DNA of 32,379 nucleotides from NCBI GenBank assembly GCA_945787635.1, contig CALZIK010000203.1, positions 1 to 32,379 of the forward strand, read 5' to 3'. The position numbers were made by a program, and so were the translations under genes. Within the stretch, counting starts at the first letter, position 1. The number at the start of each line of letters is the position of its first letter. Below the pieces are notes generated by a model, which did no database searches, was not told the origin of the DNA, and was given only the letters and a program-made list of their open reading frames with translations. The stretch is from Thermoanaerobaculia bacterium (GTDB lineage Bacteria > Acidobacteriota > Thermoanaerobaculia > Multivoradales > JAHEKO01). Below are positions 24,345-29,715 of this stretch, one piece after another.

Positions 24345-24434
24345 CGGTGGGCTCTTCGGCGCTTGGTGGTGTTGACACGCCTGCCGAACGAGCGCGAAAC
24401 TTGAACTTTGGACACTCGACCAGGGAGAGGTGAA

Positions 24435-24989
24435 ATGCAAGAGTTGTTTCTCGAAATCGAGATCAAGATGAAGCACACGCTGGATCATTTCCACGACGAG
24501 CTCAAGCACTTGCGCACCGGGCGGGCGTCACTACTGATGCTGGACGGGGTCATGGTGGACTACTACGGGAACTCCACGCCGCTCAACCAGCTCGCCAACC
24601 TCTCGGTGCCCGAGGCCACGATGATCGTGGCGCAGCCCTTCGATCCCTCATCGATCGCGGCGATCGAGAAGGCCATTCTGCAAGCGGATCTGGGGCTCAA
24701 TCCCGCCAACGACGGCAAGCTGATCCGGATCCCGGTGCCGCAGCTGACCGAAGAGCGCCGCAAGGAGATCGTCAAGCGCGCGCACGACCTTGCCGAGGCG
24801 TCGCGCAACGCGGTTCGTCAGTGCCGTCGGGACGGCAACGATGCGCTCAAAGAGATGGAAAAGGAGAAGGCGATCGGCAAGGACGAGGAGCATCGCGGCC
24901 ACGACGAGATGCAGCGCCTTCACGACCACTACATCGCCGAGATCAACTCGTCGCTCGAGACCAAAGAAAAAGACATCATGGTCGGGTAG
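24435..24989 (+). CDS. frr: Ribosome recycling factor
   Basis: Frr, with EF-G, splits post-termination ribosomes. The 184-residue product has LRTGRASLLMLDGVMVDYYGNSTPL split over the first 60 residues, then TMIVAQPFDPSSIAAIEKAI and the C-terminal helical region VKRAHDLAEASRNAVRQCRRD. I chose ATG 24435, which has GGGAGAGG just upstream and gives the normal length (about 185); a TTG at 24408 would add 9 residues. It is the last gene of the translation operon before the 371-bp structured gap. Confidence 0.97.
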   Translation: MQELFLEIEIKMKHTLDHFHDELKHLRTGRASLLMLDGVMVDYYGNSTPLNQLANLSVPEATMIVAQPFDPSSIAAIEKAILQADLGLNPANDGKLIRIPVPQLTEERRKEIVKRAHDLAEASRNAVRQCRRDGNDALKEMEKEKAIGKDEEHRGHDEMQRLHDHYIAEINSSLETKEKDIMVG

Positions 24990-25078
24990 CGTCGGGCCAC
25001 GACTCCTTCGTGTCGCCTTCCCATCTGGGGAGACCATTTCTTGGCGTGCCCTTCCGACCGGTCTTGCCTGGGATGTAG

Positions 25079-25100
25079 CGGTCGACGCCCCTGTCGACCG
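25079..25100. repeat. 22-nt palindrome, copy 1
   Basis: CGGTCGAC and GTCGACCG (8-bp perfect stem, 6-nt loop). It matches copy 2 at 25291-25312 in 18 of 22 positions; the differences lie only in the central part. The two copies bound the hairpin array. Confidence 0.7.
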
Positions 25101-25141
25101 TCTGGTCTCTGAGGCGCCAGCACCGATAGTGTCGCGCCGGT

Positions 25142-25181
25142 GTGTCTCTCCGCGAGCAAAGAGAGGCTCGCTGCGAGACAC
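25142..25181. repeat. 40-nt strong hairpin
   Basis: Outer stem GTGTCTC (25142-25148) with GAGACAC (25175-25181), a 3x3 internal loop, then inner stem GCGAGC (25152-25157) with GCTCGC (25166-25171) and loop AAAGAGAG. Thirteen pairs of perfect complementarity in 40 nt are unlikely by chance. No T-run follows. Confidence 0.6.
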
Positions 25182-25290
25182 CTCGGCGTTCCTTCAGGTA
25201 CAGGACCGGGTTGGGTGGAGCGCGCCACGGCGACGCTGAGTGGCATCGCCGTTGTGGAGTCGATCTCCGCATGGACGATTCTTGCTGGAG

Positions 25291-25312
25291 CGGTCGATCC
25301 CGGTGTCGACCG
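25291..25312. repeat. 22-nt palindrome, copy 2
   Basis: CGGTCGA (25291-25297) pairs with TCGACCG (25306-25312). It repeats copy 1 at 25079-25100 in direct orientation 212 bp away and ends 48 bp before the rlmB start. Confidence 0.7.
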
Positions 25313-25360
25313 GCGCTTGCCGCCAGACGACGGAAGGAAGGACGCGCTACTCTCTATATC

Positions 25361-26083
25361 GTGCTGATCTACGGCTTCCACCCGGTGCGCGAAGCGCTGC
25401 GAAACCGTCCCGCGCAGCTCGAACGCGTGGTCTTCGGCGAGCGCGCCCAGCGGGCGCGGGTGCTCGAGCTCGAGAAGCTCTGCAGGAAGGCCGGAATCGC
25501 GGTGGAGTCGGTTCCGGTGGAGTCGCTCGACAAGCTCACCTCGGGAGCGGTGCACAACGGCTTCGTGGCCGAGATTCGAGGTGGAGCCATCGCCTCGGCG
25601 GCTTCTCGAGCCGGGGCCGATCCCGGTCTCGTGGTGCTGCTCGAAGACGTGCAGGATCCCCGCAATCTGGGCGCCATCCTGCGGGTCTGTGAAGGCGCCG
25701 GCGTCGGTCGAGTGCTGATTCGCGACCGGGGCAGCGCGCCGCTTTCGGCGGCGGCGGTCAAGACCTCGGCCGGGGCCTCTGAGCATCTCGACATCGAGCG
25801 CGTGACCAGCTCGGCGCGCGAGATCGAGCAGCTCCAGAAGGACGGATTCTGGGTCTACGGCGCCGATGGCGAAGGCGAGCCCGTCTGGGACGTGGATCTC
25901 ACCGGCAACGTCTGCCTCTGCCTGGGCGGCGAGGAAAAGGGGTTGCGCCCGCGCACCCGGCAGCTCTGCGACCGGCTGGTGTCCTTGCCGATGCGGGGCC
26001 GGGTCGAGTCGCTCAACGTCGCGACGGCTTCCGCGGCTCTGCTCTACGAGGCGCTTCGGCAGCGGCTGGCGTCCGGTGGCTAG
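25361..26083 (+). CDS. rlmB: TrmH-family 23S rRNA (guanosine-2'-O-)-methyltransferase
   Basis: This 240-residue SpoU/TrmH enzyme probably 2'-O-methylates a guanosine of 23S rRNA (G2251 in E. coli) using SAM. It has the RlmB N-terminal substrate-binding domain (YGFHPVREALRN and following, about 1-75) and the SPOUT knot with VLLEDVQDPRNLGAILRVCE, CLCLGGEEKGLRP and RGRVESLNVATASAALLYE. I chose GTG 25361 because it gives the family start IYGFHPV; the open frame runs back to 25142 through the hairpin region. No Shine-Dalgarno lies at normal spacing (GGAAGGAAGG is about 20 nt away). Two tRNA genes follow. Confidence 0.92.
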   Translation: MLIYGFHPVREALRNRPAQLERVVFGERAQRARVLELEKLCRKAGIAVESVPVESLDKLTSGAVHNGFVAEIRGGAIASAASRAGADPGLVVLLEDVQDPRNLGAILRVCEGAGVGRVLIRDRGSAPLSAAAVKTSAGASEHLDIERVTSSAREIEQLQKDGFWVYGADGEGEPVWDVDLTGNVCLCLGGEEKGLRPRTRQLCDRLVSLPMRGRVESLNVATASAALLYEALRQRLASGG

Positions 26084-26454: not shown

Positions 26455-29400
26455 CTAGGAGACGGGCGGGAAGCGCAAGAGCTGATTCTTCTGGGATTCA
26501 CGGGCACCGATCAGCAGCGACCTCAGCTCGGCGGACCGCATCGGCTTGGTGAAGAAGTTCCCCTGCCCGAAGTCGCAGCCCTCCTCTCGTAACGCCGCGA
26601 GCTGGGGCTGGGACTCGACCGCCTCGGCGACGATGCCCAGGTCGAGTTTCTTGCCGAGGGCGATCACCGCGCGGACCAGCGGCGGGCACCCGTCCTCGGC
26701 GTTCGAGGCTCGGATGTGGCGTCCATCTACCTTGAGTTTGCTGAACGGTAGATGGGTGAGATCCTCGATCGAGAAAGGGCTGGTTCCGAAGTCGTCGATG
26801 CTCATTGTCACACCCAGCGAGTCGAGCTCGCGGGTGAGCTTGTCGATGTCGTTTTCGAGGCGAAGCAGCATCCGCTGGGTAAGCTCGAGCTCGAGCAGAC
26901 CGGGTCGCAGACCGGTTTCGTCGAGGATTCGCTCCACCGCTTGCGGGAATCCCTGAAGCCGGAACTGGACGTACGAAAGGTTGACCGAGACCGGGAGCTC
27001 GATTCCGAGCTTTGATCGCCAGGAGACCGCTTCGGAGCACGCCCGGCGCAGAATCCACTCGCCAATGCTGATGATTTCGCCGCTGTCTTCGGCAATGGGA
27101 ATGAAGGTGCTGGGTGGAATCAGGCCGCGCTTCGGATGGTTCCAACGTACCAGGGCTTCGGCGGCGACTATCGACCGATCGGCCAGAGCGAACTGCGGCT
27201 GAAAGACCAGGTGCAACTCGTCCCGGTCGATCGCTCGCTTGAGATCTCGCGACAGTTGTATCTTGTGCTGCACTTGGCGATCCATCTCGTGAGCGTGGAA
27301 GTGGAAGCAGGCGCCGCCCTGCTCCTTGGCTTTGTAGAGCGCTAGGTCAGCCTGCCTATAGAACCGTTTCGGGTCGGAGTCTCCAGGCGGAAAGACCGCG
27401 ATGCCGGTGCTTGCAGAGACGTTTACCTCGTTGGAACCCAGCCGGACCGGTTTCGCGATCTCGTCTCCGAGCCTCTGGGCGAGCGTCGCGACGCCGTCGA
27501 GACTCTTGAACTCACTGTGAATCAGCGCGAACTCGTCACCACCCAGTCTCGCGAGCGGGTCCACCTGCCTGACGATACGTCGCATTCGGTGGGCGAGGGT
27601 GGCCAGCAGCTCATCGCCGGCGGAGTGGCCATAGGTGTCGTTGATCTCCTTGAACTGATCCAAGTCGAACAGCAGCAGGGCAACTTTGTGGCCGAATCTC
27701 TCGGCGCGGGCCAGTGTCGCCTCGAGAGCCTGCTCGAACGAATATCGATTGAGGAGGTCGGTCAGAAAATCGACATGCGCGAGGCGGAAAAGCTCGTCTT
27801 GCGAGGACTCGCGCGGAGAGACCGCGAACCCGGGAAACGGCTCCGCGTCGTGGGCCGGACGAGTTTCGGATGGGGCTGGCAGGACCTGTCGCTTGGGGAC
27901 CCCGGGGAGGCCTTCGGCCTGATCGGCCAGAAGCTGCCGGACCTGGTCCGCCGGAAGTGCCCGGTGAAACAAGAAGCCCTGAAGTTTGTCGCAGTTGAGT
28001 CCCCGCAGGAGCTCCGCCTGCCGTTCGGTCTCGACACCTTCTCCGACGACCCTGAGATCGAGCTCGTGAGACATCGCGACCATGGCTCGGATGATCGCTT
28101 CGGTCGCCGGATCGTAGTCGACTCGAGCCACAAACGAGCGATCGATCTTGAGTACGCTCAGCGGGAAGCTCTGGAGATAGGCAAGAGTCGTCTGGCCGGT
28201 ACCGAAGTCGTCGATCGCCAGTGATACCCCGAGCTTCTTCAGCCGGCGCAGCTTCTCGATGGTCAACGGGTCGTCTCGGAAGACACCTCGTTCGCTCAGC
28301 TCGAGCTCCAGGTACTGCGGTTTGATCGCAGCTTCCTGTACCGCACTCTCGATTTTCTCGACGAAGGTCGCCTCTTCGAGTTGGGCGCGGGCGACGTTGA
28401 TCGCGATGCGTACCGGAGGCAGGCCCCGCGCGGTCCACTCGCTCAATTGGCGCAGGGCCCGCTTGAGGACCCAGTCGCCGATCGCGACGACCAGGCCGCC
28501 GTCCTCCGCGACCGGGATGAAGATCGCCGGCGAGATCGCTCCGCGCTCGGGTTCGGTCCAGCGGACCAGCCCCTCCAGACCGGTGATGAGTCCGGTCCGC
28601 GCGTCGACGATCGGCTGGTAGTGCAGCCGGAGCTCGTTGTTGTCGATGGCCCGGCGCAACCGCTCCTGCAATTCGAGCTTTTCGATGACCTCGTCCTTCA
28701 TCGACTCCGTGTACACGCAGATGGTCTTGCCACCCGCCCTCTTTGCGTGTTTGGTCGCGGTCTCCGCGCACTGCAGCACCGCTTCACCCTCACTCTCGGA
28801 AGCTACGGCGACGCCGATACTGGCCGACACGAAGACGTCTCGTCCGTTCACGCTGTAGGGCGCCATGACCGCGGCCAGGATCTCCTCCGCGGTTCTGACC
28901 ACCTCGGAGGTGTTCTCGACCCGGTCCAAAAGGATGGCGAACTCGTCGGCGTGGATGCGGGCCAGTGAGCCACGAAGCTCTCCGGCTATCTCTTCCGATC
29001 GGGTGACCCTTTGTTCGAGCACCGACTCCAGCCTGCCGGCGATTGCCCGCAGCAGGGCGTCGCCGCTTTCCCGACCCAGGGAATCATTGAAGTGCTTGAA
29101 TCGGTCGATGTCGATGAACAGAACCGCGATCTCGCCGCGACGGTTCTTCATCTGAGCCGCCGCCATGGCCACGATCTCGCTGAAGGTGGATCGATTCGGG
29201 AGGCCGGTGAGCTCATCGAAGTTGCGAAGCTTGAGAGCCTCGGTGCTCGCCGACCGGGCCGCGTCCTTAGCCTGCTCCAGGTACTCCTGATACTGACTCA
29301 GCTCGGCGACCGACCGGCCGACAACGACCGCCTGACGGAAACGGTGGGGAAGGACGAGCCAGTTGATCGGTTTGGGGAGGAACTCGGAGAACGGGTCCTC

Positions 29401-29715
29401 ATAGACCTTCGCGATGAGCCCTGGATCAAAGAGGTCCGACATCACGAAGACTGGAGCGCTGTGGCAGCGGGGCAGCTCGCGCAGCGCCGATCGCAAGCTC
29501 AACGCGTCGACATCGTCGACCAGCAGGTCGAGGAGGATCACGTCCGGAGCCGACTTCGTGGCCAGGACAATGGCCTCAGTCGCGCTGGCCGTGGCGGAAA
29601 CCCGAAAACCGGACCCTTCGAGCGCCTGCAAGCCAAGCGCGCGAAGCACCTGATCGGCGGTGATCAGGAGGATCCGGGGCTCGGCCGGGGTCCGATCTGG
29701 GCTCGCTTGGCGCAT
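26455..29715 (-). CDS. REC-GGDEF-EAL-GGDEF-EAL cyclic-di-GMP signalling protein
   Basis: This 1086-residue cytoplasmic protein has a receiver domain (about 14-135; likely phospho-acceptor Asp63, Lys115), then two GGDEF-EAL cassettes. GGDEF-1 (about 164-335) has IHADEF at 254-259 in place of the active GGDEF signature and is probably inactive. EAL-1 (about 345-600) reads EGL at 381-383 but keeps Asn440, DDFGTGQ, KIDRSFV, GEGVE and QGF. GGDEF-2 (about 643-808) has the canonical LGGDEF (724-729). EAL-2 (about 820-1072) has EAL (853-855), but the loop after DDFG reads TSPFSIED rather than TGYSSL. It could make and degrade c-di-GMP under control of a histidine kinase; no kinase gene is nearby. No Shine-Dalgarno is evident before ATG 29715. 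Confidence 0.93.
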   Translation of the reverse strand: MRQASPDRTPAEPRILLITADQVLRALGLQALEGSGFRVSATASATEAIVLATKSAPDVILLDLLVDDVDALSLRSALRELPRCHSAPVFVMSDLFDPGLIAKVYEDPFSEFLPKPINWLVLPHRFRQAVVVGRSVAELSQYQEYLEQAKDAARSASTEALKLRNFDELTGLPNRSTFSEIVAMAAAQMKNRRGEIAVLFIDIDRFKHFNDSLGRESGDALLRAIAGRLESVLEQRVTRSEEIAGELRGSLARIHADEFAILLDRVENTSEVVRTAEEILAAVMAPYSVNGRDVFVSASIGVAVASESEGEAVLQCAETATKHAKRAGGKTICVYTESMKDEVIEKLELQERLRRAIDNNELRLHYQPIVDARTGLITGLEGLVRWTEPERGAISPAIFIPVAEDGGLVVAIGDWVLKRALRQLSEWTARGLPPVRIAINVARAQLEEATFVEKIESAVQEAAIKPQYLELELSERGVFRDDPLTIEKLRRLKKLGVSLAIDDFGTGQTTLAYLQSFPLSVLKIDRSFVARVDYDPATEAIIRAMVAMSHELDLRVVGEGVETERQAELLRGLNCDKLQGFLFHRALPADQVRQLLADQAEGLPGVPKRQVLPAPSETRPAHDAEPFPGFAVSPRESSQDELFRLAHVDFLTDLLNRYSFEQALEATLARAERFGHKVALLLFDLDQFKEINDTYGHSAGDELLATLAHRMRRIVRQVDPLARLGGDEFALIHSEFKSLDGVATLAQRLGDEIAKPVRLGSNEVNVSASTGIAVFPPGDSDPKRFYRQADLALYKAKEQGGACFHFHAHEMDRQVQHKIQLSRDLKRAIDRDELHLVFQPQFALADRSIVAAEALVRWNHPKRGLIPPSTFIPIAEDSGEIISIGEWILRRACSEAVSWRSKLGIELPVSVNLSYVQFRLQGFPQAVERILDETGLRPGLLELELTQRMLLRLENDIDKLTRELDSLGVTMSIDDFGTSPFSIEDLTHLPFSKLKVDGRHIRASNAEDGCPPLVRAVIALGKKLDLGIVAEAVESQPQLAALREEGCDFGQGNFFTKPMRSAELRSLLIGARESQKNQLLRFPPVS

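Follow-up and report, generated by a model that had tools for sequence, protein, structure and literature searches.

The closest described counterparts of the repeat array between frr and rlmB are the GTAG REP/RAYT systems (TnpA-REP, REPtron). Features of these systems that recur in the present array are a GC-rich hairpin preceded on its 5' side by a GTAG foot, intergenic copies in the hundreds, a cognate RAYT gene flanked by the same REPs, tandem clusters, and co-variation of REP and RAYT between species (PMC2817692, PMC3733652, PMC6006769). REPs favor the gaps between convergent genes (PMC3733652), and the cleavage and rejoining of single-stranded REPs by the TnpA-REP of Escherichia coli is established (PMC6006769). 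BIME/REPIN clusters are likewise mosaic arrays of REPs and repeated spacers, and for Pseudomonas fluorescens, units repeated in tandem together with flanking sequence have been reported (PMC3116915). With a probability of about 0.84, the array is considered here to be a BIME/REPIN-like mosaic of dispersed palindromic DNA repeats that was spread by a RAYT and inserted between the conserved hairpin following frr and the start of rlmB.

The frr-rlmB gap

The window, which is the whole stretch of 32,379 nucleotides that was analyzed, contains frr for ribosome recycling factor (24408 to 24989, + strand; Pfam RRF, 9.3e-65) and rlmB for a SpoU 2'-O-methyltransferase (25361 to 26083, + strand; Pfam SpoU, 7.9e-39). 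The stop of frr at 24989 and the GTG start of rlmB at 25361, which aligns with the starts in the congeners, enclose a gap without genes. A promoter scan of this gap found no promoter, and a terminator scan found one weak terminator-like site at 25017 to 25032. Further downstream, the window encodes on the - strand (26455 to 29715) a 1086-aa protein with a response-regulator domain, GGDEF and EAL; GGDEF and EAL each have two matched stretches.

The original prediction placed five separate stem-loops in this gap. Three of them, the two boundary REPs and the hairpin of element B between them, are conserved. Of the others, the stem at 25227 to 25252 and the GGAGTCGATCTCC stem are not retained in the other copies of the unit, and the stem at 25111 to 25139 shares sequence with the base of the hairpin of B. 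The RNA fold of the segment had a z score of -2.78 relative to shuffled sequences, 2 of 200 of which folded as well, and the segment contains four perfect stems of at least 6 bp where 1.36 are expected (P = 0.022). On their own, these values are modest evidence, and it is the recurrence in the genome that is decisive.

The array extends beyond the coordinates originally given, since two degenerate GGGACAC..GTGTCCC hairpins (hairpin A) are located at 24994 to 25017 and at 25027 to 25051. The second of these, together with CCGACC (25027 to 25059), aligns with the single hairpin A that follows frr in both congeners and, judging from this alignment, is the ancestral part of the gap. With an exact stem, hairpin A was found at 20 sites in this genome, and the two congeners had 66 and 69 such sites; the control gave 0. 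The gap is 371 bp long here and 67 bp in congener G002, where it holds hairpin A alone (GGGACACCATTCCTTGGTGTCCC). In G001, a diverged copy of B (24 bits) comes after hairpin A, and there are no REPs. In the window, the two degenerate A hairpins are followed by REP, B, a tail and a second REP. The array was interpreted as an insertion because the congener gap is only 67 bp. As hairpin A is also a genus-wide repeat, three families of palindromes are layered in the gap to form a mosaic. The GGGACAC hairpins may be a further REP type with a RAYT group of its own, since in a related genus a Y1_Tnp gene (locus L204, G009:C199) is flanked on both sides, at 1052 to 1127 and 1769 to 1844, by GGGGACACAAACC..GGTTTGTGTCCCC hairpin repeats.

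The boundary palindromes are GTAG-tagged REPs

The palindromes bounding the array are direct copies of each other, as had been proposed: CGGTCGACGCCCCTGTCGACCG (25079 to 25100) and CGGTCGATCCCGGTGTCGACCG (25291 to 25312) are identical at 18 of 22 positions, and all four mismatches lie in the center. The duplicated repeat is longer than noted before and comprises 27 nt (25074 to 25100 and 25286 to 25312, both + strand), including an unpaired TGTAG or TGGAG foot. TGTAG immediately precedes the CGGTCGAC..GTCGACCG hairpin both in the left copy and at 218 sites of the genome, giving an unpaired GT[A/G]G foot 5' of a short GC-rich hairpin. The foot of the right copy has degenerated to GGAG, with loss of the T. 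The assignment of these palindromes to the GTAG REP class was made because the foot, the hairpin and the arrays fit its description (PMC2817692, PMC3733652).

When the host genome was searched with the segment, 63 matches were obtained, consisting of about five near-full copies and dozens covering its first 22 to 30 bases. The exact core, GTAGCGGTCG-N7-12-CGACCG, had 218 matches in the host genome and none in the reversed control; this is the figure used, as the 326 matches found with up to three mismatches may include sites that were counted twice, once per strand. Among the relatives, the core occurred 116 times in G002, 162 times in G009 and 21 times in G001 (reversed controls of G002 and G009, 0), and it was absent from nearly all of the 26 other relatives searched (at most 4 matches; reversed controls, 0 to 2). 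In the sampled loci, none of 81 REPs lay inside a predicted gene and 40 were at locus edges, with gene contexts, here and for element B, being approximate, as they come from a codon-usage gene finder made for the purpose. Mispairs in the REP stems were divided roughly equally between G-U (43) and A-C (44), as expected of DNA hairpins.

The REPs of the unit in the window are direct, whereas a REPIN is an inverted REP doublet, of which G002 has many, with the two REPs about 47 bp apart. The direct orientation counts against a RAYT-spread mosaic, as do the GGAG foot of the right REP and a unit on contig C59 that has no left REP.

A cognate RAYT gene

The host genome contains one RAYT gene (G000:C112), which encodes a 157-aa protein and has arrays of the same REP on both sides. 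Its Pfam family is Y1_Tnp, and in the PDB it matched a single entry, 4ER8 (2.5e-6), the TnpA-REP of E. coli. The protein carries the HUH motif as HLH (residues 70 to 72), the catalytic tyrosine (Tyr128) and the NP(L/V)(R/K)xG motif as NPVRAG (132 to 137). These three elements are conserved in three RAYTs from two species, with L or F as the middle residue of HUH. The N-terminal threonine is present as Thr33 in HIVTCTRY of the host RAYT; the two other RAYTs have V or I in the same column. An alignment with E. coli TnpA-REP showed that the host protein has W, Q, H and R, and an E-to-D exchange, at the sites for which contacts with GTAG have been reported.

Congener G002 has two related RAYTs, 59% and 57% identical to that of the host, each beside its own REP variant, and 25-nt REP variants exist in this congener. 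The stem variants at the RAYT loci are compensatory (GCG/CGC, GTG/CAC, GGC/GCC, GAC/GTC and GAG/CTC). Further copies in the host and related genomes and compensatory base changes, whose absence would have spoken for chance complementarity, were both found. In view of the hundreds of copies, the GTAG foot, the cognate RAYT and the near-empty congener gap, the first alternative of the original prediction, a REP- or MITE-like miniature repeat with palindromic ends, was borne out. From sequence evidence, this RAYT is probably the mover of these REPs.

G009 has 162 core REPs, but all of its Y1_Tnp genes are distant, at about 34% identity; a close RAYT was lost or the MAG is incomplete. The host genome also encodes a second, long Y1_Tnp-like protein of 345 aa (G000:C97; L010:1243-2280) with no REPs nearby.

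Element B

Between the REPs, a lead-in, CTCTGAGG (25107 to 25116, + strand), which is common to many B copies, is followed by element B (25117 to 25212, + strand; model R1, 94.5 bits). B was also found without REPs and is a separate, independently dispersed repeat. Its hairpin, at about 25134 to 25189, consists of a 21-bp imperfect stem with a symmetric 3-nt internal loop and the apical loop AAAGAGAG. The alignment of 38 copies gave a two-part hairpin in which 11 of 21 pairs had changed on both sides and 93.6% of the cells were paired, compared with 34 to 55% in slid controls. The covariance model detected 70 copies in G001, 19 in the host, 12 in G009, 8 in G004 and 2 in G002, with E values down to 1e-21, and its matches were confined to 5 of the 149 genomes of the class.

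This strong covariation and the conservation of both loops are what would be expected if B were the core of a structured RNA, either cis-acting or a small RNA, transcribed in the gap together with frr or ahead of rlmB, which was the second alternative originally proposed. The gene contexts partly agree with such an RNA. Among the 56 copies for which both neighbors were known, half were in convergent gaps and only 3 in divergent, promoter-containing gaps, and the same-strand gene was the nearer one in 24 of the 28 convergent cases (P = 0.00018). However, a preference for convergent gaps is also known for REPs (PMC3733652). Between tandem genes, B was nearly as often antisense (11) as sense (14), the downstream gene was not consistent, and there were up to 70 copies in a genome but in few genomes of the class. 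Rfam gave no match to 24980 to 25400 even at E values up to 1; over the window, it returned two tRNAs only, at gathering and at permissive thresholds. In an RNA, G-U pairs should be tolerated and A-C pairs avoided. The B stems had 17 G-U and 34 A-C mispairs, whereas tRNAs from the same loci had 32 and 0, a control that is slightly biased, since ARAGORN itself disfavors A-C pairs, while the detection of REPs and B has no bias towards A-C. Because G-U mispairs did not exceed A-C mispairs, which is also the case in the REPs, and both orientations occurred between tandem genes, B was read as a DNA element. It looks like a DNA hairpin rather than a conserved RNA, and an RNA in the gap is improbable.

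None of 71 B copies was inside a predicted gene. Pairs of B less than 300 bp apart in G001 (model R1) were arranged plus-minus in seven cases, plus-plus in four and minus-plus in none. B copies with an extra small hairpin, CATCAGCAGATG, inside the apical loop were found at L019:1563-1668 and at L064 (G001:C409). There is also a diverged subtype with the base GGCCGCCGG..CGGCCGGCC (L103:1133-1229, L015:451-544 and L024:1382-1476), one copy of which occupies the frr-rlmB position of G001.

The possibility that B is a REP served by a separate RAYT was considered and rejected. It starts with CCGATAGTGTCG instead of a GTAG foot, and no convincing B match was found near 12 Y1_Tnp loci. B itself may spread by another mover, because it lacks the foot and none is beside the Y1 transposases examined. 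The statement that no known family could be recognized was incorrect as regards the ends, since these are GTAG REPs; as far as tested, it holds for B, a family that is apparently undescribed.

The composite unit

The 234-bp composite of REP, B, tail and REP recurs about five times at 78 to 81% identity, with copies on contigs C111, C121, C165 and C59. The similarity begins at TGTAG and stops at the REP. The 73-bp tail (25213 to 25285, + strand) is common to composite copies only. The number of composites may be underestimated, as several copies are at contig ends and MAG contigs break at these repeats. On C59 and C165, the units are in tandem, and neighboring units share one REP. Tandem Repeats Finder reported nothing at C165 because the copies have diverged.

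That the stem at 25227 to 25252, which is located in the tail, and the GGAGTCGATCTCC stem are not conserved would agree with chance complementarity in GC-rich non-coding DNA. For the REPs and B, this explanation is already refuted by the hundreds of REP copies against zero in the control, the dozens of significant B copies and the compensatory changes, and as an account of the array it can practically be dismissed.

The recurrence of a unit bounded by REPs on one strand, in a genome with a RAYT, raises the question of whether the composite is itself a non-autonomous transposon. The direct REPs would then act as left and right ends, like the end hairpins of IS200/IS605 on one strand, and the RAYT would mobilize everything between them as one single-stranded cargo. 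This would be a special case of the RAYT-spread mosaic. However, recombination between REPs would yield identical boundaries, and the tandems with a shared REP as well as the loss of the left REP on C59 could also result from unequal REP recombination. A transposon of this kind is thus doubtful, although we infer that the composite moved in one piece and not through recombination between REPs. It is also conceivable, as a tentative extension, that B is an undescribed mobile DNA hairpin family of about 95 bp without a GTAG foot that inserts in the sense orientation directly behind stop codons, was captured between two direct REPs, and is now RAYT cargo in a composite single-stranded element.

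Proposed mechanism

For the mosaic of dispersed repeats, the most likely mechanism is that the RAYT, an HUH tyrosine transposase, recognizes the GTAG foot and the hairpin in single-stranded DNA, the predicted substrate being single-stranded TGTAGCGGTCGAC..GTCGACCG. Cleavage and rejoining at REPs would spread the REPs and possibly REP-bounded units. The composite has been copied several times and amplified in tandem through the shared REP, and tandem arrays would grow by REP-REP recombination. The observations that underlie this proposal are the copy number, the foot, the linkage of RAYT and REP in two species, the catalytic and GTAG-contact residues, the recurrence of the composite and the near-empty congener gap. 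Any effect on the frr or rlmB mRNA would probably be a side effect, and a function for either gene is not indicated.

Comparison with known systems

The REP and RAYT variants change together across sister species, and the near-empty site is available for comparison. For B, strong covariation was accompanied by failure of a simple test for RNA, the ratio of G-U to A-C mispairs, indicating that covariation alone is not proof of an RNA. B is a candidate hairpin DNA element.

By description, B resembles the longer imperfect palindromes of the ERIC, RUP and Correia type, being an imperfect hairpin of about 95 bp that is intergenic and present in tens of copies in a few related genera. What sets it apart from these, again by description only, is that its apical loop is conserved and its internal loop symmetric. 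In BIME/REPIN clusters, the spacer is usually 20 to 100 bp and the REPs are inverted, whereas the spacer here is 185 bp, holds an independently dispersed hairpin family and lies between direct REPs. Relative to the described GTAG REP/RAYT systems, this array has a new REP sequence, CGGTCGA..TCGACCG, and a host in a genus of Acidobacteria, to which a REP-RAYT system is thereby added; direct tandem REPs are common here, unlike the classical inverted pairs, and a separate hairpin repeat lies between the REPs. The whole array is a known kind of element, a REP/BIME mosaic with a RAYT, in a new lineage, and the one hairpin repeat that it encloses is well defined and apparently undescribed.
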